A stretch of DNA of 64,000 bases from an uncultured Bacteroidia bacterium (GTDB lineage: Bacteria; Bacteroidota; Bacteroidia; Bacteroidales; Prolixibacteraceae): contig CAIYPA010000458.1 of NCBI GenBank assembly GCA_903927965.1, positions 1-64,000 of the forward strand. Direction: 5' to 3'. Positions 44,899 to 60,424 of this stretch are shown here, in pieces. The notes under the pieces are model-generated. The model had not been told where the DNA came from and made no database searches. It saw only the letters and a list, made by a program, of their open reading frames with translations. How positions within the stretch are numbered: position 1 is the stretch's first letter; each line of letters opens with the position of its first letter. The translations under genes were made by a program, and so were the position numbers.

Positions 44899-46986
44899 TT
44901 ATTTTCCCCATATAAAGCGGTAATTGAACCTCCTGTTGGGGGCAGTGTCGCCATCGGTACACAATGAAATGGGGTCGTGAAGGTCTGAGGCATTGTCGCT
45001 CCATTTAAAATCAAAAATGAATTGATTCCTGGTTAAATCCATTAATCTTCGGGGAACCTCAATCTCAATTTTGTTTCCACGGGTAAAATATTTCAGATTG
45101 GAAACCAGTGCCCATTTATTTGTGTCTGAACTGTCATATTTCAACAAAACTGTAGTGTTCTTGTCTTTTATATTTTTATTGATCAGAAAGTCATAACCAT
45201 ACCACCCAGTTTCAGGATTATTGTCAGCATCAATCAGAAGCAGCATCCAATTGTTATCGGTATAGTTGGTAAGCTGATCAGAAGTTTCAGCATAGAAATA
45301 GATATTTGCCTTATTTACAGCTACTTTCGATGTGGTGATGTCGTTTCTACCGGACTGATTGATATAATGCAAACCGCCGTAACCATTATGGTCCCGGTGA
45401 TAAGTATCACCTTTGGTATCGCGGAATTCATTGGTTACCAATTTCCAATCGTCAAATTTCCCATCAATTTGAATGTTTGTCAATCCCTTCTGCACTGGTT
45501 GTGGCCTGACTCCTTTGTACCGCCTGATGTTCTGGGCCATTTGCATATAATAGTTATCGGTATAGCCATCCTTCATGGGTTGAATGCACCTGTTGAACTC
45601 AGCATTGTATTGATCGACAAAGAAATATGGGCTTTCCCGTCGCATGAATGAACCTTTTTTATCACCCTCTTGCTGATATTTGCCGGCTGTCCATTCGTTC
45701 CAATCGTTGATGTAAAGCATTTCCGGGTCCGATTTTAAGGCTTCGTTCCACCGGTCCTGGAAGTATATACCATAACCTTGGGGATTCTTTACCGTTTTTC
45801 CAAGCAAGGGAACATAAGCTGAATCTGCAAGATCATATTGATTGAGCAACGGTTCCCCGGTTTCGCGCCTCCATGATTTTCCGACAAGGCTGGAGGGATG
45901 TTGCGCTGGTGTGACCGCAGCTTCCTCTTTTTTTCCATTGTGGACCGAAACCAAACCATCGGGAGCCATGGCCTTGACTTTGGCGTTTCCAAGGTCATAA
46001 CCAAAGCTCCAATTGTCTTCGGTGCCAATGTATCGTTTGCCTGCCCATTCCCAGTAACCCCACCACATCGTCCTCAGGGTAAAGAAGTTTCTGACCTCTT
46101 TTGTATAATCTTTATAAAATGGTTCTGTAAAATCGGGATCATTAAAATGCGGATGGCTGGAATCGGTTTTTGCCAAAGCATCGTAATGGGGATTGGGCTG
46201 TTTGACATCCTGACCATTGGCATCAAATTTAGGATTCCCATTGTAGAGGAGGAGTGGTTTGCCGTCCCAATAAAACCAAAGATCGTTGAATCGTTTGGTC
46301 TTGTAAATCCTGTCGAAGAGATCCTGGACTACGGTAACGACCTGTCCATTAAATGCCCAGAAACAAAATTGGGGAACTTTGTTGCCTTCTGCTTTCATTT
46401 TGTGCATGGTCTTGAAAAGGACTTCCCATTCGTCCCAATACCTGACAGCATTCGTAACATCAAGTATCAGAACGTCAACCCCTGCATCGGTGAGCATCGA
46501 CATATCTTTGCGGATCACATACTCGTCCTGACTAAGAAAATAACCCATTTCAGGCTCGCCCCAATGGTAAGAGTTTTCCTTCCACAACGGATGTTTTGCA
46601 TCGAGCCTGGCATTCGGGTCGCTTTTCAATACTTTCGAGACATCGGCAGAGTAAGGACTTTTGAAATTGGCAAAGTGATCCTGGGTATGCCATGTGATGT
46701 AAAATATGCTCACGAGCCTTCGTTTATCGTTCTTCAACGGTCCAACATCCATGAAATCAGGCATTTTTCTTCCCAGGGCATCGGTAGCAACCCAAGTATC
46801 CGAATACAGATCACGGAATTCAGTATTGACAGTCGAAGAGTCAGGTGAAGTACACCCCGACGGTTTTAAGTTATTTTGTTTGCCTTTAGACCCTTTTTCG
46901 ATAGCAAAGGCCGACGGGAAAATGAACAATTGGACGACAAGCATCAACAAAAATAAAACCTCTGGACCAGAATATCTATTATTCAT
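44899..46986 (-). CDS. Secreted glycoside hydrolase-like protein (GH71/GH99-like) with C-terminal carbohydrate-binding domain
   Basis: 695 residues with a signal peptide (about 1-28, SAFAIEKG). The N-terminal half contains a barrel-like pattern: VSIFYITWHTQDHF, HWGEPEMGYFLSQDE, ADVDVLILD-like DAGVDVLILDVTNAV, PLLLYNGNP and LYINDWNEWTAG, resembling GH71/GH99-type enzymes. The C-terminal part (from about 515) resembles a CBM9/DOMON sandwich (IQIDGKFDDWKLV, WMLLLIDADNNPETGWYGYDF). Family assignment is by pattern and is not certain. It stands 150 bases before the GH106 gene on the same strand. Confidence 0.7.
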   Translation of the reverse strand: MNNRYSGPEVLFLLMLVVQLFIFPSAFAIEKGSKGKQNNLKPSGCTSPDSSTVNTEFRDLYSDTWVATDALGRKMPDFMDVGPLKNDKRRLVSIFYITWHTQDHFANFKSPYSADVSKVLKSDPNARLDAKHPLWKENSYHWGEPEMGYFLSQDEYVIRKDMSMLTDAGVDVLILDVTNAVRYWDEWEVLFKTMHKMKAEGNKVPQFCFWAFNGQVVTVVQDLFDRIYKTKRFNDLWFYWDGKPLLLYNGNPKFDANGQDVKQPNPHYDALAKTDSSHPHFNDPDFTEPFYKDYTKEVRNFFTLRTMWWGYWEWAGKRYIGTEDNWSFGYDLGNAKVKAMAPDGLVSVHNGKKEEAAVTPAQHPSSLVGKSWRRETGEPLLNQYDLADSAYVPLLGKTVKNPQGYGIYFQDRWNEALKSDPEMLYINDWNEWTAGKYQQEGDKKGSFMRRESPYFFVDQYNAEFNRCIQPMKDGYTDNYYMQMAQNIRRYKGVRPQPVQKGLTNIQIDGKFDDWKLVTNEFRDTKGDTYHRDHNGYGGLHYINQSGRNDITTSKVAVNKANIYFYAETSDQLTNYTDNNWMLLLIDADNNPETGWYGYDFLINKNIKDKNTTVLLKYDSSDTNKWALVSNLKYFTRGNKIEIEVPRRLMDLTRNQFIFDFKWSDNASDLHDPISLCTDGDTAPNRRFNYRFIWGK

Positions 46987-47136
46987 AAAGGAGTTATCAA
47001 TTAGTACTGTTCAATCAGAAATTCAATTCGTTACACAAACAATCACAGTAACTTTAAAGAAGGGCCAAAGTACTTTTTTGACTCTGACCCTAATATTTCA
47101 ACCCATTTCAATCCATTTCCACCTATTTCCACCTTT

Positions 47137-50100
47137 TTAATACTTCGTACTTAATATCTGAACCGGTCCAAACAACCCTGAAGGTTGCAACGGACTTTCA
47201 GGTTTGTAGGGATTTACAGGACACCAGGTTGGACGCTGATCTACTGGTAATTTGCTGTCACCGATCAACCGGTTTACCCATGTATTGACAACCTCAATTT
47301 TCAACTCGTTTTCACCCTCTTTTACAAACTTCGTGATGTCTAGCAGGTAAGGTGTTGTCCAGACGCCTCCAACATAAACTCCGTTCAAGGTAACTTTGGC
47401 CATCGCCGTTAGGCTTCCAAGGTTAATGGAAACTTGTTGATCATTTTGGTTTTGTCCCATATTGAATTTGCAATTATAAGCCGCTGTTCCCGAAAAATAT
47501 TTTATCCTTTCGTCTGCGTTAGTTGTCCAATCCTGTAAAGTTTCAAAAACAACCGGTTGTTCAGGTCCCCTTTGAGCTGGATTGAAGACAACATTCCATG
47601 GACCCTTCAGGTCAACCAGTACATTTGATGCAGGATAGTTGGCTTCTAAGGTTCCAGACAAAGGTTTTTCAGATGGTTTCCTGAATACAACAAACACACT
47701 TTCAAAGGGTTCAAGTTTTATCGGCACTTCGGTCAGATCCTCTTTCTGAACAAACCCGTTCAGCTTTCTGATGTGCCCGGTTGTGGCTTCCCACAATTCC
47801 GGCGATAATCCCTTGACCCTGAATCCTGGGGAAACGACCTTTGGTGCTGAAGTTTGATTCGTGATAAAATAAATTTCACCGTTTTCCATTTTCCGGTGGC
47901 CATAATGGATTGATCGGTCTTCAGGTAAGGCGCAGTCTGGTTTGCAATTGATTAAGGCAAAAGCCTCTTCCATGGTCAATCCGCTCATAATTAATCCTTT
48001 GCCGAATTTGCGCGATTTCACATTTTTGCCATCCACCTCGCCCCAAAGCTCTGATGCAAGGGTTTGCACCTGTTGATCTGCCTGTGGCTGGTTTTGCAGG
48101 CTCGGCGACAGTTTGGGTGCCGGTCCTAAAACTACACCTCCGTCATTGACAAGCTGTTTAATTTTGGTCAACAGTTCTGGCCGCATCGTTTCAAGTTTTG
48201 GAAGTACCATGATCCTGTACTGCGTGCCGTGGGGAAGGGTCAACAATCCATCCTTAACGGTCATAAATTTTTCGATCACCTCGGCATTCATATAGTCGAA
48301 CTGATAACCCACCGGCAAAGCCGGATCGGCAACCCCTGTCATTTTTGGGGCATCTTCGCCAATAAAATAGGCCACATCGGCAACATTCAACCCTTGCTGG
48401 AGCATGAAATTGGTCCTTTTGAGGTATTGGGTATAAACATCCATTTGCGAAAACCAGGTGTTGTTCCGGTTAAACTCATTTCCAAACCAGGCGTTCATCC
48501 CTGGTAGTTTGTCGTCATAAGGCTGTGTAATATAGACATGTAGTAGCGTATTGTTGATCCCTTCGGCAAAGAATCGGTCACCTCGTTGTTTGATGACACC
48601 CGGATAGCGGCTGAAAGGTTTTCCGGAGCAGGTGTTCGATTCGGCTGAAATTTTGTTTTTGCCGTAAATATGGCCACAGGAGGTAGCAGCGCGGTTTTCG
48701 ATATTACCGAGCTCTCCCTCGCTCCAGAATTCACCTGCAATTTCATCCGACTGACCACCGTACATCAGAAATTCGCTTGGAAAACCCCAATGGCCGTAAC
48801 ATTCGAGCCAAGTTTTTAATCCATATTTGTGGCTGATATCCCTCAATCCACCCACATAATCATAGGCCACCTTATCTGCGACCATCCGGCGCATATCCCA
48901 GAGAAAACGGTCTGATGCAAGTTCACTGTTGACCACCATACCTTGATATACAGGAAGATAAGGAATGGCATCATATCCGAAGCGTTGTTTGAACTCTTCA
49001 AGAAAACCATCTGTAAAGTTCTGTCCACCAGTTTCGTAGCTGTCCTGGACAACAACTTTGAAACACCTACGGTCTGCTTCGGGAATACGTTTCAGGACTT
49101 CGCCCATATGGCCATAGAAATGTTTCTCAACATGTGCTTTGCTCATCTTGTCCACTTCGTAACCAGTGGCTTCAGGTGATGCAGGACTGTTTACCGTTCC
49201 GGTAGGGGTCATTCCGGTACGCATGATGATCCATTCCCCTTCAGGTACGTCCCATGTCAGCGTGCCATCGGTACTGAGGTTCTTTGAAAGGTCGGTTACT
49301 TTTGATCCGTCGATGACAATTGAAGGGTCATCTACAACAGGTTGTACGCCCCATTGATAATCTTTCCAGTAGGGAAGTGGGGTGGGGTGCATTTTGGCAA
49401 GGGTTTTCTCACTGTAACGCTCGACTTTAGGAGCAGCACCTATCGTTACTTCGGCCAGCCCACTGTTCAATTTCGCATCCTTGATTACCAGGCGGAAATT
49501 GGTTGATGTGGTTGCCGGAAAGGAGACTACCACAGGCGCATAAGGGTCAAAACCTACATTAAGGGCAGGATTGGAGCGGTTGATCTGAAATTCAGAAAGT
49601 GTCCGGTATTCTCCATGTGCCTCTTTCACCTGAAAAATAGCATTCACAAGCATCCTGGTCTCGGTTGGGCGAACGGATAAACTTCTGGCTGTAAAAGGTG
49701 TTTTAGCTTCAAAATCAATTGTAACCAATCCTTCAACAGGAAAACTGATCCCTGTTTTTTTGTCACCATCCACAATTTTTGAAAGTTGGGGAATGGCAGG
49801 AGAAGAAGTTATCTTTCCATTTAATTGATTAATTACAAGCAGGTTATCTTTTGGAGCGGGAAAAGCGATCACTTTCACATCCTGAAATTCAGCAGTCGGT
49901 TTGTCCATTTTTTGGACCATTTTTATCGGACCTTTGACGCGTAATTCAGATGTGGTCAAATAGCGCATCGCCTGTTCGGCTTTTATCCATGGACCGCCCG
50001 ATTGGCTCCAGCCCGGAGAATTGAAGATGCCGATTTCGATTTTTAGCTCAGTGGCCGTTTTTAACGTCGTGTGCAGGATGTCCCACCACTCTTCGCTGAG

Positions 50101-50379
50101 CATTTTGACTTTCCCGTAAGGGATATCGCTCAACCCGATATTTCCAATAAATGCCCTGTTGATACCAGCTTTTTTCATGGATTGAAGGTCTTTCACGACT
50201 CCCTCTTTTGAGACATTATCGGAGATCCAGTACCAATAAACACCGGTTTGGATGGAATCGGGAGGTGTGACAAAACCACTTTCCAATGCTTCGGGGGATA
50301 CTTTAGTCGGGTTAGTTTTACAGGAAACGGCAAAAAATATCATCGATAGACAGATGACCAGATGAATTGCATTTTTCAT
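47137..50379 (-). CDS. Glycosyl hydrolase, GH106-type alpha-L-rhamnosidase lipoprotein
   Basis: 1080 residues from the ATG at 50379 (an upstream double ATG at 50409 is less likely). The signal peptide ends FFAVSC, a lipoprotein motif. The N-terminus SGFVTPPDSIQTGVYWYWIS, SMKKAGINRAFIGN and IEIGIFNSPGWSQSGGPWI is typical of GH106. A galactose-binding-like module follows, and a sandwich domain with NLGSLTAMAKVTLNGVYVGG is near the C-terminus. It should remove rhamnose from pectin side chains or exopolysaccharide at the cell surface. A divergent AraC-type regulator lies 174 bases away. Confidence 0.88.
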   Translation of the reverse strand: MKNAIHLVICLSMIFFAVSCKTNPTKVSPEALESGFVTPPDSIQTGVYWYWISDNVSKEGVVKDLQSMKKAGINRAFIGNIGLSDIPYGKVKMLSEEWWDILHTTLKTATELKIEIGIFNSPGWSQSGGPWIKAEQAMRYLTTSELRVKGPIKMVQKMDKPTAEFQDVKVIAFPAPKDNLLVINQLNGKITSSPAIPQLSKIVDGDKKTGISFPVEGLVTIDFEAKTPFTARSLSVRPTETRMLVNAIFQVKEAHGEYRTLSEFQINRSNPALNVGFDPYAPVVVSFPATTSTNFRLVIKDAKLNSGLAEVTIGAAPKVERYSEKTLAKMHPTPLPYWKDYQWGVQPVVDDPSIVIDGSKVTDLSKNLSTDGTLTWDVPEGEWIIMRTGMTPTGTVNSPASPEATGYEVDKMSKAHVEKHFYGHMGEVLKRIPEADRRCFKVVVQDSYETGGQNFTDGFLEEFKQRFGYDAIPYLPVYQGMVVNSELASDRFLWDMRRMVADKVAYDYVGGLRDISHKYGLKTWLECYGHWGFPSEFLMYGGQSDEIAGEFWSEGELGNIENRAATSCGHIYGKNKISAESNTCSGKPFSRYPGVIKQRGDRFFAEGINNTLLHVYITQPYDDKLPGMNAWFGNEFNRNNTWFSQMDVYTQYLKRTNFMLQQGLNVADVAYFIGEDAPKMTGVADPALPVGYQFDYMNAEVIEKFMTVKDGLLTLPHGTQYRIMVLPKLETMRPELLTKIKQLVNDGGVVLGPAPKLSPSLQNQPQADQQVQTLASELWGEVDGKNVKSRKFGKGLIMSGLTMEEAFALINCKPDCALPEDRSIHYGHRKMENGEIYFITNQTSAPKVVSPGFRVKGLSPELWEATTGHIRKLNGFVQKEDLTEVPIKLEPFESVFVVFRKPSEKPLSGTLEANYPASNVLVDLKGPWNVVFNPAQRGPEQPVVFETLQDWTTNADERIKYFSGTAAYNCKFNMGQNQNDQQVSINLGSLTAMAKVTLNGVYVGGVWTTPYLLDITKFVKEGENELKIEVVNTWVNRLIGDSKLPVDQRPTWCPVNPYKPESPLQPSGLFGPVQILSTKY

Positions 50380-50553
50380 AATGTGGGGATTTGGATTTTT
50401 TGACATCATTTCAATTCCTTAAGTAAGTTTTTTGATCTAAGAGTTAATTGACTGTTTAGAAAAATCAGTTAATATTGTGGAACCAAAAGTAAGTTTTTAA
50501 ACAATTGCTTTTGCAATCCAGTCCCAGGAATTATTGACATAAATTGAAATGTG

Positions 50554-51435
50554 ATGGAGGATTTCTTCAAATATACGACAAAAAGTAATGAGGATAAAAA
50601 CTGGGGATTGTACATGAACGTGGCAGGATGTGCCAATATCCTGCCAGGAGCCTCCTATCCTCCACCCGGACATCCGGCTGAATACAGTTTTAGCTGGGAA
50701 AACGGACGGATACTCCACGAATTTCAATTGAATTACATAACAAAGGGGGAAGGAGTTCTTGAAACAAAATCGGGAAAATATCCGGTAAAGGAGGGTTCGG
50801 TGATCATCATCTTTCCTGGTATGTGGCACAGGTACAGGCCCACAAAGGAGGGATGGAAGGAACATTACATCGGTTTTAACGGGATGTTCGCCAACCATCT
50901 GTTTGAAAATGAGTTTTTTTCGGGTCGGAACCCTGTTGTACAAATCGGTTTTAATGAACGCTTGCTTCAAAGCTTCTATGAACTGTTCAGCCTTGTTGAA
51001 ATGGAAAGAGCTGGTTATCAGCAGGTTTGTTCAGGTTTGGTCATTTACATCCTGAGTACGATTATTTCCATCAAGAAAAATGAAAATTTTGCTGGCAAAC
51101 AGATAGAACAAACGATCCAGAAAGCCTGCCTTACCATTCGTGAGAATATAGATAAAAACCTTAGTATAGAGCAACTTGCAAGTGATTTGAACATTGACTA
51201 TTCCATTTTCCGCAAAGTGTTCAAGCAATATACCGGTATTCCACCCGGTCAGTACCACCTTTCTTTACGAATCAGGCAAGCCAAGGATTTGCTGATCAAC
51301 ACAGAATTGAGCATCAAAGAGATTTCATATCGGTTGGGGTTCGAATCGATCTTTTATTTTAGCAGGGTCTTTAAATCCAAAACAGGGATCAGCCCCACGG
51401 AATACAAGAATGGACCTAAAGTTGTTAATGGTTGA
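50554..51435 (+). CDS. AraC-family transcriptional regulator
   Basis: 293 residues (ATG at 50554; the preceding GTG codon is less likely). An N-terminal cupin-like ligand-binding domain (residues about 30-150, with LETKSGKYPVKEGSVIIIFP and WHRYRP) is followed by two AraC helix-turn-helix motifs near residues 190-285 (LSIEQLASDLNIDYSIFRKVF; SIKEISYRLGFESIFYFSRVF). It stands divergent to the GH106 gene and is probably its sugar-responsive activator; the inducer is unknown. Confidence 0.93.
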   Translation: MEDFFKYTTKSNEDKNWGLYMNVAGCANILPGASYPPPGHPAEYSFSWENGRILHEFQLNYITKGEGVLETKSGKYPVKEGSVIIIFPGMWHRYRPTKEGWKEHYIGFNGMFANHLFENEFFSGRNPVVQIGFNERLLQSFYELFSLVEMERAGYQQVCSGLVIYILSTIISIKKNENFAGKQIEQTIQKACLTIRENIDKNLSIEQLASDLNIDYSIFRKVFKQYTGIPPGQYHLSLRIRQAKDLLINTELSIKEISYRLGFESIFYFSRVFKSKTGISPTEYKNGPKVVNG

Positions 51436-51852: not shown

Positions 51853-52716
51853 ATGAAAATAAAACATTCAACGATTCATAAAATCATCATTGCATTTTTG
51901 ATATTGGTTGTACTTCTGACCATTTCAGCCTTATATTATATTGGAAACAGTTACTATTCAACAAGTTTGGAAGAACGCCACTTTCATCCCGACAATGATT
52001 CGCTCATTTCTAGCGGGCCAGTTGGACATGGTTTGGGCGTAATTGGTTCTTTGATGATGGCAGTTGGACTTTTTACTTATATGGCCAGGAAGCGGATCCG
52101 CTTGTTTTCGCGGGTTGGGGTACTTAAATATTGGTTGGAGATGCATATTTTCCTTTGTACTCTGGGACCAGTTCTTGTGTTGTTCCATACGACCTTCAAA
52201 TTCGGGGGGATCGTGGCGGTCAGTTTCTGGTGCATGGTAGCCGTTGTTTTAAGCGGGGTGATCGGAAGGTTTATTTACGTTCAAATTCCCCGGTCCATCG
52301 AGGGGCGTGAACTGAGCCTACAGGAATTGGAAGATCAAAAGCTGGAAACCAACAAGCAGCTCAGGAAAACAATTACCCTCGATGAAAGTATTTATGAGCT
52401 GCTTGACAGCTATTCAGGTAATGAATCCAAGGGGATAGGTAACCAGTTTTTTAAAAGCCGCAAAGAGAGAGTTGCACTTCGCCAACTTAAAACTGAGCTG
52501 AAATTGCAACAGGTTCCAAAAGTTAAAACAAGGGAAATATTACAGACATACAAGGACCAATTGTCACTCAAGAAAAGGATCGACAGGCTAAATATGATGC
52601 AAAACCTTTTTAAATACTGGCATGTAGCCCACCTTCCATTCGCTTTGGGAATGTTGGTCATCATGATTGTGCATGTTACTGTTGCCATCACTTTTGGTGC
52701 AAAATGGATATTTTAA
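51853..52716 (+). CDS. Cytochrome b-like membrane protein
   Basis: 287 residues from the ATG at 51853 (a TTG six codons upstream also fits). About five membrane segments are predicted: one N-terminal, three in the middle and one at the end, with a charged cytoplasmic loop of about 100 residues between the fourth and fifth. Histidines in or at the edges of helices (GHGLG, EMHIF, LFHTTF, WHVAHLPFA, IVHVTV) are suited to bind b-type hemes. It is the first gene of the electron-transfer cluster and the next begins 3 bases after its stop. It is probably the quinone- or flavoprotein-linked membrane entry of the pathway; heme binding is inferred. Confidence 0.75.
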   Translation: MKIKHSTIHKIIIAFLILVVLLTISALYYIGNSYYSTSLEERHFHPDNDSLISSGPVGHGLGVIGSLMMAVGLFTYMARKRIRLFSRVGVLKYWLEMHIFLCTLGPVLVLFHTTFKFGGIVAVSFWCMVAVVLSGVIGRFIYVQIPRSIEGRELSLQELEDQKLETNKQLRKTITLDESIYELLDSYSGNESKGIGNQFFKSRKERVALRQLKTELKLQQVPKVKTREILQTYKDQLSLKKRIDRLNMMQNLFKYWHVAHLPFALGMLVIMIVHVTVAITFGAKWIF

Positions 52717-52719
52717 CCT

Positions 52720-54057
52720 ATGGAATTACTTTTAGAAAAACTGATTACATATCTCGTTGTTGCGATCTTCCTTATCGTGGTTGTGATCATTTATTTAAGA
52801 AAACAAAAGAGGGAATCGAAGATTGTAGATGCAAAAATTGCCATAGCCAAGGAGGAAGGGTTGTATGAGCCTGTTTCGCTGCATCCCGTAATCAATGTGA
52901 ACAGTTGCATCAAAAGCGGTGCCTGCATCACTGCCTGCCCTGAAAAGGATATTATCGGCATCCGAAATGGCAAGGCTACCATTATCAATGCATCACATTG
53001 TATTGGTCACGGCGCGTGTTTTAATGCTTGTCCGGTTCAGGCCATTACTTTATGTATTGGAACCGAAAAGAGAGGAGTCGATCTGCCGCATGTCAACCAA
53101 ACATTTGAATCGAATGTTCCCGGTGTTTACATTGCTGGCGAGATGGGTGGGATGGGATTGATCAAAAACTCGGTTGAGCAGGGGAAGCAAGCCGTCGAAA
53201 ACCTGGTAAAAACGATCAATAAGAATGTTGAAGCCCAATATGACCTGATTATTGTGGGTGCCGGCCCGGCAGGTATATCGGCAACCCTTACCGCTAAAAA
53301 AATGAATATTAGAGCTTTAACTCTTGAACAAGACTCGTTGGGAGGAACAGTTTTTACTTTTCCAAGGTCAAAAATTGTGATGACCTCTTCGATGGATTTG
53401 CCTCTTTATGGTAAGGTAAAACTCTTCGAGACCAGCAAGCTTGAATTGTTGAACCTTTGGAATGAAGTGCTTTCAAAGAATGGGATACAGATTAAAGAAA
53501 ATTCAAAAGTCGAAGCCGTTGTACCCAAAGACAAGCACTTTGTAGTCAAAACACTCAGTGGTGAGGAATTTACTTCGCGAAAAGTATTGCTTGCGGTTGG
53601 CCGGAGGGGATCACCACGAAAACTCAACGTTAAGGGCGAGGAGAGCACGAAAGTCGCCTATCGATTACTGGAGCCAGAATTGATTGAGGATAAGGATATT
53701 GTGGTAGTAGGGGGAGGTGATTCCGCCATTGAGACTGCATTGTTGCTCACCGATCAGAACAGGGTTCATTTGTCCTACAGGAGTGATGTGTTTGGCAGGT
53801 TAAAACCCAAAAACAAGAGCAAAATACAGACAGCTATTGAGGAAGGGAGGATCAAAGTCCTGTTTAACTCAGGTTTGACTGCTATTGAGGATGAGCTGGT
53901 TCGAATCTCGGTAAAAGGTTCCGATCAGGAACTTGTATTGAAAAATGACCTTGTATATATTTTTGCCGGTGGGGAACTTCCTACCCAATTTCTTGAAAAA
54001 ATTGGGATTATGATCAGTACAAAGCGTGGTGAAGCCATTTTAAAGCATGAAGATTAG
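52720..54057 (+). CDS. Membrane-anchored Fe-S/FAD/NAD(P) oxidoreductase
   Basis: 445 residues. One N-terminal membrane helix, then a ferredoxin-like region with CIKSGACITACP (63-74) and CIGHGACFNACP (94-105), a YIAGEMGGMGLIKNS segment, and a thioredoxin-reductase-like flavoprotein: FAD motif VGAGPAGIS near 179-187, NAD(P) motif VVGGGDSAIE near 328-337 and an FAGGELPT ending. Each Fe-S motif has Cys at positions 1, 7 and 11 but lacks the second Cys of CxxCxxC (Ser66, His97). A redox-active CxxC of thioredoxin reductases is absent. It likely passes electrons from NAD(P)H into the membrane and on to the c-type cytochromes encoded downstream. Confidence 0.8.
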   Translation: MELLLEKLITYLVVAIFLIVVVIIYLRKQKRESKIVDAKIAIAKEEGLYEPVSLHPVINVNSCIKSGACITACPEKDIIGIRNGKATIINASHCIGHGACFNACPVQAITLCIGTEKRGVDLPHVNQTFESNVPGVYIAGEMGGMGLIKNSVEQGKQAVENLVKTINKNVEAQYDLIIVGAGPAGISATLTAKKMNIRALTLEQDSLGGTVFTFPRSKIVMTSSMDLPLYGKVKLFETSKLELLNLWNEVLSKNGIQIKENSKVEAVVPKDKHFVVKTLSGEEFTSRKVLLAVGRRGSPRKLNVKGEESTKVAYRLLEPELIEDKDIVVVGGGDSAIETALLLTDQNRVHLSYRSDVFGRLKPKNKSKIQTAIEEGRIKVLFNSGLTAIEDELVRISVKGSDQELVLKNDLVYIFAGGELPTQFLEKIGIMISTKRGEAILKHED

Positions 54058-54087
54058 AACATCAAAGTCCTGATAAGAGATTTAGTA

Positions 54088-55707
54088 ATGAAAAATGTCA
54101 ACCAAAATACCAGTGGAAAATTTATTACCGGGATCATCCTTCTGATGGTTTCAATAAGTGGCTATGGGCAAATATCTCCGGGGGAATTGTCGAAGGTCCA
54201 TGCAAGCCTCGACGGTATGGCCAACTGTACGAAGTGCCATAAATTTGGAGAGAAAATTGCCAACGGGAAATGCCTTGACTGCCACACCGAGATCAAAGCC
54301 CGGACTGACAAAAAAAAAGGTTTCCACTCCTCTTCTGAAGTTTCGGCTAAAACATGTATCACCTGCCACAGCGACCACCATGGCGCTAATTTTGCAATTA
54401 TCCGTTTTGACAAGAACAAGTTTGACCACAACCTGACCGGTTTTAAACTTGAAGGTGTCCATGCAAAAAAAGAGTGCGAAAAATGTCATAAAACAGCCTT
54501 TATTACCGATACCGATCCAAATATTAGAAAGAAAAGTTCGACTTATCTTGGTCTGACGAATGAGTGTTTTGGATGTCATGAAGATGTACACCAAAAAACA
54601 CTTTCAAATACCTGCTCAAATTGCCATTCCAATGAGGCATTCAAACCGGCTTCAAAATTTGACCATTCAAAAGCAAAATATCAGCTTAAAGGAAAACATG
54701 CAACTGTTTTGTGCAAGGAATGTCATAAAACGGTTGTTCAGAATGGTAAAAATATGCAACAGTTTACAGGACTGCAATTTAGCAGTTGTCTCAATTGTCA
54801 TAAGGATGTCCACAAAGACCAGTTTGGCCAGAATTGCACCCAATGCCATACTGAAGAGTCATTTAAGGCTATCAAAGGGATCAGCAAATTTGATCATACC
54901 AAGACTAAATATCTTCTTGTAGGTCAGCACATTACAATTGCTTGTAAATCATGCCATAAGGTGAGCCTTACTGCTCCCTTGCCTCACGAAAAGTGTACGA
55001 GTTGCCACATTGATTACCATAAGGGGGAATTTGCCCAGGCTGGGAAGTCTCCAGAATGTACACAGTGCCATTCTATGGAAGGTTTCAAGAAATCCTCATA
55101 TACAATTGAACAACACAATCAGACTGTCTTTAAACTGGAAGGAGGCCACCTTGCAGCGCCTTGTTTTGAATGTCACAAAAAAGCCAAAGATTGGAAATTT
55201 CGGGAAATCGGAAAAAAATGTTCTGCCTGTCACGAGAATATTCATCGTAATGTTATAGATATCAGGTTTATCCCTGATGATAATTGTGAGAGTTGCCATA
55301 ATGTGAATACATGGAAGGACATCAAGTTCGACCACAAGCTTACCTCCTTCACATTGGAAGGAAAACATACCGGACAAACATGCCGTAAGTGCCATTTTGA
55401 GGACAAACCAGATGGAACATTTTCTCAGAAATTTGCCATCTTAAAAGACGGTTCTTGCGAATCTTGCCATACCGATGTCCATCGTGCCCAGTTTAAGGAG
55501 AACAATGTGACATTGTGTTCAAAGTGCCACGGATTTGAAGGCTGGAAACCAGCGAAGTTCAATCACGACAGCACCAGTTTTAAATTGGATGGGGCACATA
55601 AAAAAGTGATTTGTATTAAATGTCATAAACCTGTAAAGGAAGGTGATACTACTTATATCAATTATAAACTAAAAGACGCCAAATGTACAAGTTGTCATTT
55701 GCGATAA
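54088..55707 (+). CDS. 20-heme c-type cytochrome
   Basis: 539 residues with a signal peptide (about 1-28, ending ISGYGQ) and 20 CxxCH heme-binding motifs by direct count, the first CTKCH and the last CTSCH at the very end. Spacing follows a repeated unit: CxxCH, a W- or F-rich stretch, FDH or FNH, L-x-G-x-H, CxxCH. Extra histidines (FDH, GKH, DVH) could give bis-His ligation. It is exported to the periplasm and likely forms a heme wire. The end overlaps the start of the 28-heme gene by 25 bases in another frame. Confidence 0.95.
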   Translation: MKNVNQNTSGKFITGIILLMVSISGYGQISPGELSKVHASLDGMANCTKCHKFGEKIANGKCLDCHTEIKARTDKKKGFHSSSEVSAKTCITCHSDHHGANFAIIRFDKNKFDHNLTGFKLEGVHAKKECEKCHKTAFITDTDPNIRKKSSTYLGLTNECFGCHEDVHQKTLSNTCSNCHSNEAFKPASKFDHSKAKYQLKGKHATVLCKECHKTVVQNGKNMQQFTGLQFSSCLNCHKDVHKDQFGQNCTQCHTEESFKAIKGISKFDHTKTKYLLVGQHITIACKSCHKVSLTAPLPHEKCTSCHIDYHKGEFAQAGKSPECTQCHSMEGFKKSSYTIEQHNQTVFKLEGGHLAAPCFECHKKAKDWKFREIGKKCSACHENIHRNVIDIRFIPDDNCESCHNVNTWKDIKFDHKLTSFTLEGKHTGQTCRKCHFEDKPDGTFSQKFAILKDGSCESCHTDVHRAQFKENNVTLCSKCHGFEGWKPAKFNHDSTSFKLDGAHKKVICIKCHKPVKEGDTTYINYKLKDAKCTSCHLR

Positions 55708-57764
55708 TCCTTTTATCGCTTGCAATCAATGTTATGGCCCAATCGCCTCATGGAAAGGATTTTAAAGCTGAATGTGTGAATTGCCACACATCTGGGGGGT
55801 GGAAAGAGATGAATGTTAAGCTATTGTTTGACCATGATACGACCAGTTTCAAGTTGGTCGGGCAGCACAAACAGGTGAGTTGTAAAGCTTGCCATAAAAC
55901 ATTGGATTTTAATCTGAAGAAACAGACCTGTGTTGAATGTCATACCGATATGCACAATGGTACGGTGGGCAAAGATTGCGCCAGGTGCCATACACCAAAT
56001 ACCTGGATCATTGAGAATGTGACCGATCTGCATCAGCAGAGCCGTTTCCCCTTACTTGGTGCACACCGTACAGCAAGTTGTGCAGGATGCCACAAATCAG
56101 CATCCACCTTGTTGTTTGAGCACACTGGTATAGAATGTGTCGATTGTCATAAAGTTGATTATCAGAATGCAACGAATCCGAACCATGTGCAGGGAGGTTT
56201 TCCGACATTGTGTACTGAATGTCATCTTGTTGGGACGACAACCTGGAATTCAGGAAAGGTAGCCCATGACTTCTTCCCATTGGTTGGAGGCCATAATGTT
56301 GGTTGTATCCTGTGCCATACAAATGGTCAGCTTACCAAAGTTTCCAAAGAGTGTGTCAGTTGCCACCAGGTGCAGTACAACAATGCCCCTCGACATACAC
56401 AATTGAAATATTCTAACGATTGCACAAAATGCCATACCTCGACAAATTGGTTACAAACCACATTTAACCATTCACTTACGAATTTTCCGCTCACTGGCTT
56501 GCATATACCAGTTGTCTGTGAAAAGTGCCATACGACCACCCTGGCAGGAACCCCCACTGTTTGTAGCGGTTGCCACCTTGGCGATTTCAACAATGCTGCT
56601 ATTCCAAGCCATTTAACTGCAGGTATCCCGAAGACTTGTGAAACATGCCACACGACAGCAGGATGGAAACCCTCGGCATTTAACCACACAACAACTGGTT
56701 TTGAACTGAAAGGTGGACACAAAGCCATTGTACAATGTTCAGCATGTCACAAAGGTACATTGACTGGTTTAAAACCTGAATGTATCAGTTGTCATCAGGT
56801 GCAGTACAATAGTGCTCCTAGGCATTTGCAATTGGGATATCCGACCGATTGTTCTAAATGCCATTCTTCCGATAATTGGCTGCAATCCAGCTTTAACCAT
56901 GCTGGAACTAATTTTCCGCTTGCTGGTTTGCATACAGGTGTTGCCTGCGAAAAATGCCATGTTACCAGTTTAAAGGGAACTCCCACAATTTGCAAAAGTT
57001 GTCACCTCACTAATTTCAATCAGGCTCAGTTGCCCAACCATATCGCTGCAGGGATTACCCAGGATTGCGAAACCTGCCATACACCGGCAGGTTGGAAACC
57101 TTCGGCGTTCAACCACACAACGACAGGATTTGAATTGACTGGGAACCACAAATTGGTTACACAGTGTTCGAGCTGCCATAAAGGAAACCTAACTTCTGCA
57201 AGTCCGTTGTGTATCAATTGCCATCAGGTTCAGTACAATAGTGCATCAGACCATGTAAAATTGGGATATCCGACCGATTGTTCAAAATGCCACAATACAA
57301 CAAACTGGCTCCAAACCAACTTTAATCATGCCACAACAAACTTTCCGTTAACCGGGGCACATGTAACTACAGCTTGTAATTTATGCCATACGACCAAATT
57401 TGCCGGAACGCCGACTTTATGTTTTAGCTGTCACACTACCAAGTACAACAATACGACGAATCCAAACCATCTCACGGCAAAATTCCCGACCAATTGCGAG
57501 TCGTGTCACACAACAACTGCATGGACGCCTGCAACTTTTAACCACGACGGGCAATTCTTTCCGATTTATTCCGGAAAACACAAAAGTGCATGGACGCTTT
57601 GTACCGAATGTCATACTACCAGTAATTATTCAAATTATAGTTGCATCGATTGTCATGAACATAGTAATAAAACTTCTGTTGATAAAACACATAGTGGGAA
57701 GAAAAATTATAGTTATACTAGCACAGCATGTTACAGTTGCCATCCACGTGGCACTGCAAATTAA
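55683..57764 (+). CDS. 28-heme c-type cytochrome with tandem six-heme modules
   Basis: 693 residues: signal peptide (about 1-19, INVMAQ) and 28 CxxCH motifs by direct count. In the middle part a block of about 143 residues with six hemes is repeated in tandem (CHQVQYN begins near 56361, 56793 and 57219), sharing FNHTTTGFEL, HQVQYNSA and GWKPSAFNH wording. The gene thus grew by duplication of a six-heme unit. A likely periplasmic or surface-exposed electron conduit acting with the 20-heme protein and the outer-membrane barrel encoded next. Confidence 0.95.
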   Translation: MYKLSFAIILLSLAINVMAQSPHGKDFKAECVNCHTSGGWKEMNVKLLFDHDTTSFKLVGQHKQVSCKACHKTLDFNLKKQTCVECHTDMHNGTVGKDCARCHTPNTWIIENVTDLHQQSRFPLLGAHRTASCAGCHKSASTLLFEHTGIECVDCHKVDYQNATNPNHVQGGFPTLCTECHLVGTTTWNSGKVAHDFFPLVGGHNVGCILCHTNGQLTKVSKECVSCHQVQYNNAPRHTQLKYSNDCTKCHTSTNWLQTTFNHSLTNFPLTGLHIPVVCEKCHTTTLAGTPTVCSGCHLGDFNNAAIPSHLTAGIPKTCETCHTTAGWKPSAFNHTTTGFELKGGHKAIVQCSACHKGTLTGLKPECISCHQVQYNSAPRHLQLGYPTDCSKCHSSDNWLQSSFNHAGTNFPLAGLHTGVACEKCHVTSLKGTPTICKSCHLTNFNQAQLPNHIAAGITQDCETCHTPAGWKPSAFNHTTTGFELTGNHKLVTQCSSCHKGNLTSASPLCINCHQVQYNSASDHVKLGYPTDCSKCHNTTNWLQTNFNHATTNFPLTGAHVTTACNLCHTTKFAGTPTLCFSCHTTKYNNTTNPNHLTAKFPTNCESCHTTTAWTPATFNHDGQFFPIYSGKHKSAWTLCTECHTTSNYSNYSCIDCHEHSNKTSVDKTHSGKKNYSYTSTACYSCHPRGTAN

Positions 57765-57778
57765 TTCAAATTAGGGCG

Positions 57779-59389
57779 ATGAGAATAATATTCTTCATAT
57801 TTCTGATGATTGGTGTTTCTGTCACTTTGTCCGCACAAGTTGAAAGCGATGAGATTGAAGGATCTGTGACTTTTGTTACCGCACAAAATGTATATGTCAA
57901 ATTTGCATCTGCAAAAAAGATTAAACCCGGCGATAAGATTTTTGTCCGGAAAAACAATGTGCTGGTTCCTGTGCTTGTTGTCGATTATTCCTCCTCGATC
58001 TCATGTGTTGGCAAATTGACTGGAGATCAAAAACTTAAAGAGGGCGATAAAGTGATTGCTTTAATCATTATCGATAAAAGTGAATCTAAAAGGGAACAGG
58101 AAAACAGAAGGGTTGAGGCCATTCCCGTAAGTGATGAAGTTATGGGCAAGTCGGTAAAGGATTCCACCAAAACAGGTCAGGTACGTAAACAGGATGTAAG
58201 GGGAAGATTGCAATTTTCATCTTATTCGAATTTGTCAAACCTTGCAGGAACTGAAAGTCACAGGTTGCGCTATACGATGTCTTTGGATGTATTAAACGTT
58301 GCCGATTCACGTTTGTCATTCGAAAGTTATGTATCGTTTACACACAAGTTAAACGATTGGGCACCAATTAAGGCAGATATTTTCAATGGATTGAAAATCT
58401 ATGACTTGAATTTGAAGTACGAAATAGGAAAAAGTACTGCAATATGGGTGGGACGTAAAATCAACCCAAAAGTAGCGAGCCTTGGGGCAATCGACGGGAT
58501 ACAGTTTGAGTCGGCCGGTAAATATTTTTATTTTGGAGTCGTTGCGGGGATGCGGCCTGATTATACCGATTATGGGTTCAATTCAAAATTGCCCGAATAT
58601 GGTGTCTATTTGGGTCAAACATTGGAAAACAAAAATGGGATGATGCAGACTTCTGTTGCGGTTTTCGAGCAGACGAATGCCGGAAATACCGACCGGCGGT
58701 ATGCGTATTTTCAGCACGACAATTCCTTGTTGAACAATGTCAATTTGTTTGTTTCATCCGAAGTCGATCTATACAAGGTCGTCAATGGTTTGCCGGTCAA
58801 CGGATATACCCTCACCAGTTTGTACGCATCGCTGAATTTTCGGATCACGAAAAGGCTTTCGATCATGGGGTCATACGACAACCGTAAAAATGTGATCTAT
58901 TACGAAACGTTCAAGAACTATGTCGATCAATTGCTCGAAGATGCTTCCCGTCAGGGAGTTCAGGTAAGGATCAATTACCGTCCGATCAACTACATGAACA
59001 TTGGGGTTTCATCGAGTTACAGGTTGCGCGACAAAGATTTTTTACCGACAAAAAATGTAAACGGATATCTATCCTACGGTAAAATGCCTTTGGGTATAAC
59101 GGCCTCATTATCTGGTAATTTAATTCAGACAAGTTATGTCAACGGTTCAGTCTATGGAATAAGGCTCGACAAGAGCCTTATGTCGGGAAAAATGAATTGG
59201 GGGTTGAATTACAGATATGTTGATTACCAATTTGTTAGTAATTCCAATACACTTCAGCAGCACATTGGTGAAGCCGATTTGTCGGTTCAGGTTACACGGA
59301 AGTTCTCATTATCGGTGAATTACGAGGGAACTTTTGAAAAAGTGAACAAATATCACTCAATCTACTTCAGTGCTATCAAAAGATTTTAA
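57779..59389 (+). CDS. Outer-membrane beta-barrel protein of the cytochrome cluster
   Basis: 536 residues from the ATG at 57779. Signal peptide (about 1-18, VTLSAQ), an N-terminal SH3/OB-like region (ITKPGDKIFV-type IKPGDKIFVRKN and KEGDKVIALI, residues about 20-95), then from about 140 a long series of amphipathic strands of outer-membrane barrel type (YRYVDYQFVSNSN, FSLSVNYEGTFEKV) ending in an aromatic Phe (SAIKRF), typical of barrel proteins. In other electron-transfer systems a porin holds multiheme cytochromes across the outer membrane; this could be the local equivalent. No sequence match to a named porin is claimed. Confidence 0.75.
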   Translation: MRIIFFIFLMIGVSVTLSAQVESDEIEGSVTFVTAQNVYVKFASAKKIKPGDKIFVRKNNVLVPVLVVDYSSSISCVGKLTGDQKLKEGDKVIALIIIDKSESKREQENRRVEAIPVSDEVMGKSVKDSTKTGQVRKQDVRGRLQFSSYSNLSNLAGTESHRLRYTMSLDVLNVADSRLSFESYVSFTHKLNDWAPIKADIFNGLKIYDLNLKYEIGKSTAIWVGRKINPKVASLGAIDGIQFESAGKYFYFGVVAGMRPDYTDYGFNSKLPEYGVYLGQTLENKNGMMQTSVAVFEQTNAGNTDRRYAYFQHDNSLLNNVNLFVSSEVDLYKVVNGLPVNGYTLTSLYASLNFRITKRLSIMGSYDNRKNVIYYETFKNYVDQLLEDASRQGVQVRINYRPINYMNIGVSSSYRLRDKDFLPTKNVNGYLSYGKMPLGITASLSGNLIQTSYVNGSVYGIRLDKSLMSGKMNWGLNYRYVDYQFVSNSNTLQQHIGEADLSVQVTRKFSLSVNYEGTFEKVNKYHSIYFSAIKRF

Positions 59390-59479
59390 CAAAAGGATAT
59401 ATTTGCAAAAAAAACGTATTTCGATGAATTACGGGTTGTTTTATTATTAATGTCAGGTAAGTTTATAAAAACAGAAGAA

Positions 59480-60235
59480 ATGAAGAAATTAGTATTTGTA
59501 ATGTTTGTCCTTTCAGTGATAGCTGCTTGCACATCGCCTCAGCAAAAACCTAAAAAAGATACAGCCCAGGCTGGGATACTTAAACAGGTCAAGATAGCTG
59601 AAGTTATTCAGGCTCAGAGTTATACCTATTTGAAGGTTTCTGATGCCCTTGTAGAAAATTGGTTGGCAGTAAACAAGCAGGATTATAAAGTTGGTGCCGA
59701 TTTGTTTGTGAATTACACTACGGCTGTCACGATGGAAAATTTTCACAGCAAAGAGCTGAACCGTGATTTTCCATCGATTTTATTTGTTTCTCAAGTTTCT
59801 GATCAGCAGCAATCGGCTACCGAACAGCCTTCAGGTATGGGTGGTGGCATGGGTGGTGGCATGGGTGGTGCCATGGGCGCACAAATGCCAGCAGGAAAAA
59901 AAGTTGCCCCGGTTCAAGCCAATATAAAGGTTGAACCTATCCCAGGAGGAATAACGATTGCAGAATTGTACGCCAACAAAGCCAAATATGCGGGTAAAAA
60001 GGTGAAAATCAAAGGTTCTGTGGTAAAAGTCAATGATGAGATCATGGGCAAGAACTGGGTACATCTTCAGGACGGCACAAAAAATGGGGATGATTTTGAC
60101 CTTACTTTTACTACAAAAGCTACTGTTGTAGTGAACGATGTTGTTACTTTTGAAGGAGTCGTAGCCATTGACAAAGATTTCACAGCTGGGTATGTCTATC
60201 CTTTGATCGTTGAGGATGCAGAGCTGATTAAATAG
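59480..60235 (+). CDS. Lipoprotein with Gly-Met-rich linker and OB-fold-like domain
   Basis: 251 residues from the ATG at 59480. Signal peptide ends VIAACTS, a lipidated Cys. Residues about 112-135 form a Gly/Met repeat (GMGGGMGG units, 12-base DNA repeat), followed by an OB-like domain with ELYANKAKYAGKKVKIKGSV and WVHLQDGTKNGDDFDL, a pattern seen in small proteins near cytochrome genes. It is the last gene of the cluster, 90 bases after the barrel gene. Methionine-rich stretches often bind Cu+ or shield heme proteins; that is only a suggestion. Confidence 0.7.
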   Translation: MKKLVFVMFVLSVIAACTSPQQKPKKDTAQAGILKQVKIAEVIQAQSYTYLKVSDALVENWLAVNKQDYKVGADLFVNYTTAVTMENFHSKELNRDFPSILFVSQVSDQQQSATEQPSGMGGGMGGGMGGAMGAQMPAGKKVAPVQANIKVEPIPGGITIAELYANKAKYAGKKVKIKGSVVKVNDEIMGKNWVHLQDGTKNGDDFDLTFTTKATVVVNDVVTFEGVVAIDKDFTAGYVYPLIVEDAELIK

Positions 60236-60260
60236 GTTTTCGGATTTAAAAATACATATT

Positions 60261-60293
60261 AAACCCTCAAGGTACCCGATACCTTGAGGGTTT
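60261..60293. terminator. Palindrome, end of the cytochrome cluster
   Basis: AAACCCTCAAGGTA (60261-60274) and TACCTTGAGGGTTT (60280-60293) form a perfect 14-bp stem with a 5-base loop. It ends the cytochrome cluster and precedes the second PD-(D/E)XK gene; a cousin follows that gene at 61323. Confidence 0.75.
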
Positions 60294-60424
60294 GTTGTTC
60301 TTCGAAATTGTGAATTCCGTTAAAAATTCGTATCTTCGTAAAATGTAACAGGTGCAGGAAAACTGGTTCCTTTTATGCCCTCTTACTTTTCAACTTTTTG
60401 TTATAACAGTTAATAAATAAGGTT

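Follow-up and report, generated by a model that had tools for sequence, protein, structure and literature searches.

A conserved six-gene unit of Bacteroidota as a candidate electron conduit from the cytoplasmic membrane to the cell surface

Electron export across the cell envelope is best known from Shewanella, Geobacter and their relatives, and most accounts of Bacteroidota present them as fermenters or aerobes. The closest described systems are the MtrCAB/PioAB loci of Shewanella and Rhodopseudomonas and the Pcc loci (OmbB-OmaB-OmcB) of Geobacter and Ignavibacterium, where a barrel gene adjoins genes for multiheme cytochromes and electron transfer through the outer membrane has been proposed. 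Here we describe a related arrangement in a 64,000-nucleotide stretch of DNA from an uncultured Prolixibacteraceae bacterium (GenBank assembly GCA_903927965.1, contig CAIYPA010000458.1, positions 1 to 64,000), referred to below as the window. Six tightly packed genes on the + strand (51853-60235) encode, in this order, a cytochrome b-like membrane protein (B), a flavin- and Fe-S-dependent reductase candidate (F), two c-type cytochromes with 20 and 28 CxxCH heme motifs (C20 and C28), a predicted outer-membrane barrel (P) and a lipoprotein (L). The unit is real and conserved, and it is probably an electron conduit. We put at about 0.6 the probability that the six genes form one conduit across the whole envelope, of the porin-cytochrome type and of its own lineage; in our best reading the unit belongs to the porin-cytochrome kind, and its feeder is unlike the known entry enzymes.

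Several features set the unit apart from MtrCAB/PioAB and Pcc, namely the lack of a match to the MtrB_PioB family, a barrel of 22 predicted strands, the lack of a visible lipoprotein cytochrome, a heme complement of 20 plus 10-61, and an inner-membrane feeder encoded within the unit itself. The comparison of P with the Pcc porins OmbB, ExtB and ExtI is by description. On the inner-membrane side, CymA, CbcL and ImcH share the proposed role in extracellular electron transfer (EET) at the cytoplasmic membrane. In those proteins a multiheme c-type domain is joined to a membrane part, whereas B contains no CxxCH motif and its partner is an FAD/NAD(P)/Fe-S module.

A similar published cluster in the phylum is the seven-gene cluster of the bioanode organism Bacteroidetes_1, with best hits in Bacteroidetes and Ignavibacteriae (PMC8258643); it also combines multiheme cytochromes with a predicted barrel but, compared by description only, is given as six multiheme cytochromes and one barrel, with no flavoprotein. 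High-heme proteins, especially of Saprospiraceae, have been noted as undescribed and guessed to serve EET or storage (PMC11495043), a Prolixibacteraceae genome has been credited with several possible EET pathways (PMC10504345), and Ignavibacteria have OmbB- and MtrB-like clusters (PMC7399161, PMC4245776). The terms bacteroid and ignavibacter are absent from the main text of PMC11475568, and no such cluster was found in the accessible portions of PMC13374861. Across the open PMC literature, in those portions of it that were available and with supplements and subscription papers outside the scope, neither the six-gene unit nor a flavoprotein feeder nor a three-heme length series was found. Electron-export paths of this sort are little described in Bacteroidota; the initial annotation of this locus said so of a version fed by a flavoprotein-type NAD(P)H dehydrogenase.

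Gene order and distribution of the unit

The open reading frames (ORFs), order, strand and coordinates agree with the six consecutive same-strand genes of the initial annotation, apart from small corrections of the starts of B, P and L. B starts at the ATG at 51853, where the ORF list begins at TTG 51835, and P at 57779, where its signal peptide begins; for L, the ATG at 59480 is most likely the start rather than 59450. The gaps between successive genes are 3, 30, -25, 14 and 90 bases (the 90 measured to the corrected L start), the reading frames of C20 and C28 overlapping by 25 bp.

Conservation of gene order was assessed in 115 distinct B loci, obtained from 38 fetched stretches and 80 named loci (118 in all) by removing one duplicate and two loci without B. 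The named loci are the best 80 of at least 571 B relatives. Among the 40 genomes of the phylum with a strong B match, one is the window's own; 23 of the other 39 were fetched for the counts and five more as a check. Among the 16 relatives with P, 14 were fetched (15 stretches), the window's own genome (G000) and G015 being left out. Because loci were picked by B or P, the gene-order counts are conditional on that choice; the counts of presence in genomes are not.

F is the next gene after B in 99 of the 115 loci, follows after one intervening gene in seven and stands in the order B-C-...-F in five; three more are truncated or border on a reversed gene, and one has another arrangement. F is thus part of the unit in 111 of the 115. 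Cytochromes lie downstream of B in 102 loci, of which 76 carry P by BLAST; 23 of the remaining 26 reach the end of the locus or contig first, and the other three (L081, L086, L088) have P by profile. The order proposed by the initial annotation is therefore conserved in many genomes of the phylum. L follows P in only 10 of the 76 loci carrying P.

Presence in whole genomes gives a similar picture. Among 395 Bacteroidota genomes, P is found in 39 (E<=0.001), five of these matches (G200, G279, G350, G400 and G440) being partial or weak. A strong B (E<1e-40) is found in 40, and 39 genomes have both (Fisher 3e-53, kinship ignored). The sole strong-B genome without P is G421, whose locus (L080) runs off its contig within the second cytochrome. 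Among 61 genomes comprising the window's own and 60 relatives, P occurs in 16 genomes and F in 15 at E<=1e-60; the two sets are identical but for G015, where P begins 214 bases into a contig. The window's own genome has one full match to F and one to P. In a one-genome-per-species collection, at least 571 of the 587 candidate stretches listed encode a B relative, and the named carriers among the matches listed include Prolixibacteraceae, Marinilabiliales, Labilibaculum, Saprospiraceae and Cyclobacteriaceae.

The five check genomes illustrate variants: G279 and G440 have B-x-C20-C-P-F, and G074 has C20-C-P-F beside B; the other two are taken up below with the evidence against a single conduit. 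Weak B matches in 62 further genomes (best E 3e-9), mostly to residues 57-170, were left out of the counts; the proteins concerned are mostly ~190-220 amino acids long, and many genomes of one family contain them (e.g., G189, G104). The gene between B and F (L068, L069, L070, L071, L077, L078, L083) encodes a membrane-anchored protein of ~200 amino acids. Those of L068 and L077, when scanned, proved to be TPR proteins that resemble the TPR domain of CcmH/CycH below threshold, and such a protein may perhaps be a dedicated cytochrome c maturation factor. Neighbours outside the unit, judged by their first residues in 13 loci, vary from lineage to lineage; L068, L071 and L077 share a downstream gene.

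The cytochromes and the barrel

The counts of 20 and 28 CxxCH motifs given by the initial annotation for C20 (54088..55707, + strand) and C28 (55683..57764, +) are exact, and chance occurrence can be rejected: in 500 composition-preserving shuffles of each protein the mean number was 0.22 for C20 and 0.36 for C28, and never more than 3. Both proteins appear, on reading by eye, to carry signal peptides, as annotated. Beyond the CxxCH motifs there are 22 His in C20 and 30 in C28, enough for a second ligand at each heme if all sites are loaded.

C28 matches Cytochrome_C7 (PF14522) at 1.7e-30. When it is cut into eight segments, seven are 66-76 residues long with three CxxCH each and the last contains six, so that by its sequence C28 has the make-up of tandem three-heme c7-like domains, with a repeat of ~71 residues. 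Tandem Repeats Finder (TRF) detects no DNA-level tandem repeat in C20 or C28, and the three-heme repeats of this copy are therefore not a recent array. Repeated three-heme c7-like domains are shared with Geobacter GSU1996 (12 hemes) and GSU2210 (27 hemes), being shown for GSU1996, where one heme per domain is His-Met ligated (PMC10138318). C28 differs from the Geobacter nanowires in staying below the cut-off of the curated nanowire_3heme model (25.7 bits, with 19.8 for C20; cut-off 40), in the variable heme number of its relatives and in its barrel partner.

Heme numbers in relatives were counted only in ORFs clear of locus ends and unreadable bases, i.e., in 100 first and 83 second cytochromes. 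The first cytochrome is nearly uniform, with 20 hemes in 81 loci, 23 in 13 and, in the remaining six, 19, 19, 19, 17, 15 and 13. The second ranges from 10 to 61 hemes, and 66 of the 83 counts equal 1 modulo 3 (binomial 8e-18, kinship ignored); whole three-heme modules thus seem to be gained or lost. A later check, outside the 83, found a complete second cytochrome with 64 hemes in 1661 residues (L220). Frames with 62 and 63 hemes in L153 and L150 are cut by the locus end, and L062 has a further large cytochrome after the barrel, with 44 hemes so far.

This variation in length bears on a different interpretation, in which the many-heme cytochrome would be a capacitor within the envelope and P, as a porin, would let some small soluble shuttle or substrate through. 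A range of 10-61 hemes, or 64 with L220, is what one would expect if capacity rather than reach were selected. GSU1996 and GSU2210 have been described as periplasmic proteins that most likely store electrons (PMC10138318), and the very-high-heme proteins of activated-sludge Bacteroidota have been guessed to be either EET or capacitor-like proteins (PMC11495043). A store needs no barrel, however, and the barrel stays with the cytochromes wherever the locus is long enough or, in three loci, a profile is used (76 of 102 by BLAST); we regard storage as unlikely to be the main function.

C20 has weak matches to ExtN and ExtO of selenite/tellurite operons (E 3.7e-8 and 8.8e-8, ~32 bits; cut-offs 200) and to the DmsE family (3.3e-13, 49.7 bits; cut-off 192). 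These matches, although far below the cut-offs, could hint at a terminal reductase, instead of a wire to solids, whose substrate is soluble and lies in the periplasm or outside the cell, such as a nitrogen, sulfur or selenium oxyanion. Against this, none of the six proteins matched a molybdopterin or other catalytic family, and the extra His would allow bis-His ligation at every heme, unlike in open-site enzymes. We judge a terminal reductase to be very improbable.

P (57779..59389, +) has a signal peptide by eye. Its AlphaFold model (pLDDT 82.9, pTM 0.63) contains a small N-terminal beta domain at about 23-97 and a barrel at 139-535, with 22 strands as counted by us from the DSSP line. The closest structural neighbour is PirA (Z 19.4, 332 residues, 4.6 A), followed by other TonB-type receptors, OprD-type porins and ushers, as expected for any large barrel. 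The predicted fold and these neighbours agree with the annotated outer-membrane barrel. MtrB is absent from the 50 neighbours listed, which is uninformative on an MtrB fold.

A search of P against the MtrB/PioB family, suggested with the initial annotation, gave no match to that Pfam family in the window's P or in 30 relatives. PF11854 (MtrB_PioB) is absent from the window's P at E<=0.01; the relatives match 12 Pfam families at E<=1, PF11854 not among them, with no family in more than three relatives and a best E of 0.007. The profile of P finds nothing in PDB sequences at E<=1. No MtrB_PioB match occurs in the whole window genome at E<=0.001, a search in which no control genome passed the cut-off either. 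We therefore rejected membership of P in the MtrB/PioB family, and by Pfam the unit does not belong to that known porin-cytochrome family. It nevertheless has what porin-cytochrome systems have in general, a large (predicted) outer-membrane barrel encoded beside multiheme cytochromes and inherited together with them.

L (59480..60235, +) was annotated as a lipoprotein, and reading by eye agrees (lipobox VIAAC). It has a possible OB-like C-terminal domain, and no family exceeded its own cut-off in the family scan.

The inner-membrane module and the proposed electron path

B (51853..52716, +; 287 residues) is predicted to have five long membrane helices, the last two separated by a helical insert (pLDDT 87.2), and its hydrophobic segments agree with this model. 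His98, His112, His257, His260 and His274 are invariant in 30 of 30 aligned sequences, and His59 is nearly so (28 of 30). Helix 91-112 carries the pair His98/His112 and helix 223-284 the pair His260/His274, the partners being 14 residues apart in both. Two-heme b cytochromes typically have such pairs, spaced by about 14 residues, on two transmembrane helices, and in sequence and model B conforms to this pattern, as the cytochrome b-like assignment of the initial annotation anticipated. B could thus be a transmembrane di-heme electron wire.

Family matches are sparse: DUF4405 is found in 13 of 30 B relatives at E<=1 (best 1.2e-5) and Ni_hydr_CYTB in two of the 30, neither being found in the window's B. 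A second structural search returned mostly sensor-domain, ABC-transporter and coiled-coil proteins, with cytochrome b561 at Z 7.3 and 7.2, and the PDB sequence profile gave a single match at E 0.99, which is meaningless. Since these fold searches are uninformative, it is the His pattern, together with the weak Pfam matches, that supports the cytochrome-b reading. A basic loop (RKRIR, 79-83) suggests, by the positive-inside rule, that the end of B with His98 and His260 faces the cytoplasm.

F (52720..54057, +) combines a 4Fe-4S domain with Pyr_redox_3 (150 bits, cut-off 30). One N-terminal hydrophobic segment is followed by basic residues, which suggests an anchored protein with a cytoplasmic body, in line with the membrane-anchored Fe-S/FAD/NAD(P) oxidoreductase originally annotated. 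YpdA and TrxR-like reductases come closest to the FAD/NAD(P) part, with a profile match of 5.2e-48 to the YpdA structure 7a7b and further PDB matches to the TrxR-like ferredoxin-NADP reductases 3ab1, 6gas and 5twb. The pair of FAD and NAD(P) Rossmann domains is shared with these enzymes, and the glycine motifs of both as well as six Fe-S cysteines are kept in the family alignment. F differs in lacking the redox-active CxxC of the thioredoxin reductase NAD domain (its seven cysteines are the Fe-S set and Cys112) and in being fused to an anchored Fe-S domain whose second-ligand positions are His/Ser. Both Fe-S motifs of the window's F are without the usual second Cys; position 97 is His in 21 of 21 aligned sequences, and position 66 is Ser in 13, Cys in six and Thr in two, with Ser66 in the window. 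From these residues it is possible that one cluster is His-ligated and the other three-iron or Ser-ligated.

A further difference from TrxR/YpdA concerns domain order. The motif that normally closes the TrxR-like FAD site at the C-terminal end, here FESNVPGVYIAGE, precedes the first Rossmann domain, so that F is likely, from its sequence, to be circularly permuted. In a profile-profile test against 18 reductases, kept by length (280-370 residues) from 30 found, F 116-171 aligns to their C-terminal FAD motif with a score of 29.7 (P 1.8e-4), and 50 column shuffles gave at most 19.5. In the three PDB alignments displayed the segment falls at the same place, below significance. HMMER gave no support: with segment 115-171 moved behind the FAD/NAD part, F scored 95.4 bits against one thioredoxin reductase (100 column shuffles, mean 94.2, maximum 97.7) and, without gain, 44.0 against a second (controls 43.6, maximum 44.4); searched by itself, the segment matched neither reductase.

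On the conduit interpretation, F would take two electrons from NAD(P)H onto FAD at the cytoplasmic face and pass them singly, via its pair of Fe-S clusters, to the inner b-heme of B, whose outer b-heme would reduce periplasmic C20. C20 and C28 would then, together with P, carry electrons over the periplasm and the outer membrane, a cytochrome presumably residing in the barrel, to an external acceptor for which Fe(III), Mn(IV), humics or a partner cell are candidates. The steps up to the b-hemes follow from domain content and conserved residues, and the later ones from analogy and co-inheritance. The least certain elements of this path are the bypass of quinone and the position of C28. The flavoprotein-fed conduit of the initial annotation is in part sustained: domain content and the joint presence of F and P speak for NAD(P)H input, while P is not of the MtrB/PioB family and no lipobox was seen in the cytochromes.

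The same conduit may instead be entered through quinones, with B a quinol oxidase or quinone reductase, as the other EET entry enzymes are, and F acting at a different point, either from NAD(P)H to quinone or in reverse reduction of NAD(P)+. The EET entry families CymA, CbcL and ImcH, treated in PMC6295460, offer a comparison, and His59 together with a conserved KPSG...GHG stretch beside it, near one membrane face of B, could form a quinone site. The position of F in the unit at 111 of 115 loci, directly after B in 99, suits a direct partner better. Quinone entry is a serious possibility, which we hold to be true with less than even odds.

Electrons might also flow inward, from external donors such as Fe(II), Mn(II), partner cells or cathodes through P, C28 and C20 to B, F and NAD(P)+. 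F resembles the TrxR-like ferredoxin-NADP reductases named above, and these can run toward NADPH. The potentials of c7-type hemes lie above that of NAD(P)H, and such uphill reduction of NAD(P)+ would need energy coupling, for which there is no ion pump among the six genes; neighbouring genes, which by eye resemble those of polysaccharide-degrading enzymes, would moreover point to heterotrophy. Such conduits can be bidirectional (PMC8258643), and we rate uptake as quite unlikely.

Returning to outward transfer, its most specific form would be a machine for NAD(P)H-to-surface export that evolved in Bacteroidota independently of Mtr and Pcc, with a permuted F bearing a His-ligated cluster, a quinone-free wire of two b-hemes, a heme wire tuned by modules (10 to 64 hemes) and a barrel of its own family. 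We consider this full combination somewhat unlikely.

Physiological setting and genomic surroundings

A possible link to physiology comes from Labilibaculum, Baltic isolates of which divert a minor part of their electrons to Fe(III) while fermenting glucose (PMC5760507; also PMC9765461). All four described strains, of two species, reduce Fe(III), and one also reduces Mn(IV) (PMC5760507). In the genus that holds the Labilibaculum loci L107 and L099, B is present in four of nine genomes, all four of which have B-F-C20-C-P (L107 from Labilibaculum sp. K2S, L099, L213, L214; L214 with an extra 135-residue ORF before C20).

A number of observations weigh against the single-conduit interpretation. 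B occurs in only those four of nine genomes, yet all four described strains reduce Fe(III); with both species reducing Fe(III) and five genomes lacking B, the unit may not be required, and the link holds at the genus level only. Ferric reductase and NrfHA have been named as candidates for metal reduction in Labilibaculum (PMC5760507). Within the window's own genus P is patchy (8 of 18 genomes), which makes the unit accessory. In G354, ~10 kb of other genes lie between B and F-C-C-P and the first cytochrome has 16 hemes; G200 retains only a remnant (L219, C56:40000-52000), in which a B with stops adjoins a C-terminal fragment of P and neither F nor the cytochromes are left. The carriers include metagenome-assembled genomes of Saprospiraceae and Cyclobacteriaceae, largely aerobic groups, and the window's genome itself has two COX1 genes. 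Foldseek with the B model gave no match at E<=0.001. No lipobox was seen by eye in C20 or C28, so no surface-anchored partner is evident, although a cytochrome might be transported through the barrel. Finally, the proteins of the unit are described here from sequence and models.

If the conduit is real, it would give many Bacteroidota a route for disposing of electrons on minerals, humics or partners, and fermenting members could dump reducing power outside the cell. Metal reduction by fermenters like Labilibaculum could be accounted for in this way, and the genes would serve as a marker in searches for the route. If NAD(P)H feeds the conduit directly, the energetics would be different: that step would involve neither quinone nor proton pumping, so that the cell would be disposing of electrons and not respiring. 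Cytochromes that differ in length by three hemes at a time would make a natural series on how the length of a protein wire matters.

The genome of the window is 7.57 Mb in size, 98% complete and 4.4% contaminated. Contamination of the window was considered and rejected, the GC content being 0.416 both inside and outside the unit and the same block being found in family members. Matches to sigma-70 promoters are not above shuffles in the region (19 vs 21.2). Terminator-like sites number 9 against 8.1 expected from shuffles, the longest being a stem of 15 pairs downstream of the unit (60260-60294, +); a PD-(D/E)XK family nuclease/transposase gene (PF12784, 60425-61318) lies 3' of it. On the other side, 44899-51435 encodes two large secreted proteins on the - strand that by eye resemble polysaccharide-degrading enzymes, and an AraC-type regulator (PF12833) upstream of the unit may serve these genes instead of the cytochromes. 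Elsewhere in the same genome, one locus (L175, C580:17000-31021) has ORFs with 4, 6, 19 and 7 CxxCH around a small protein that by eye is b-type-cytochrome-like, and another (L177, C258:53000-67000) encodes an 8-heme protein followed by another small protein of this appearance.

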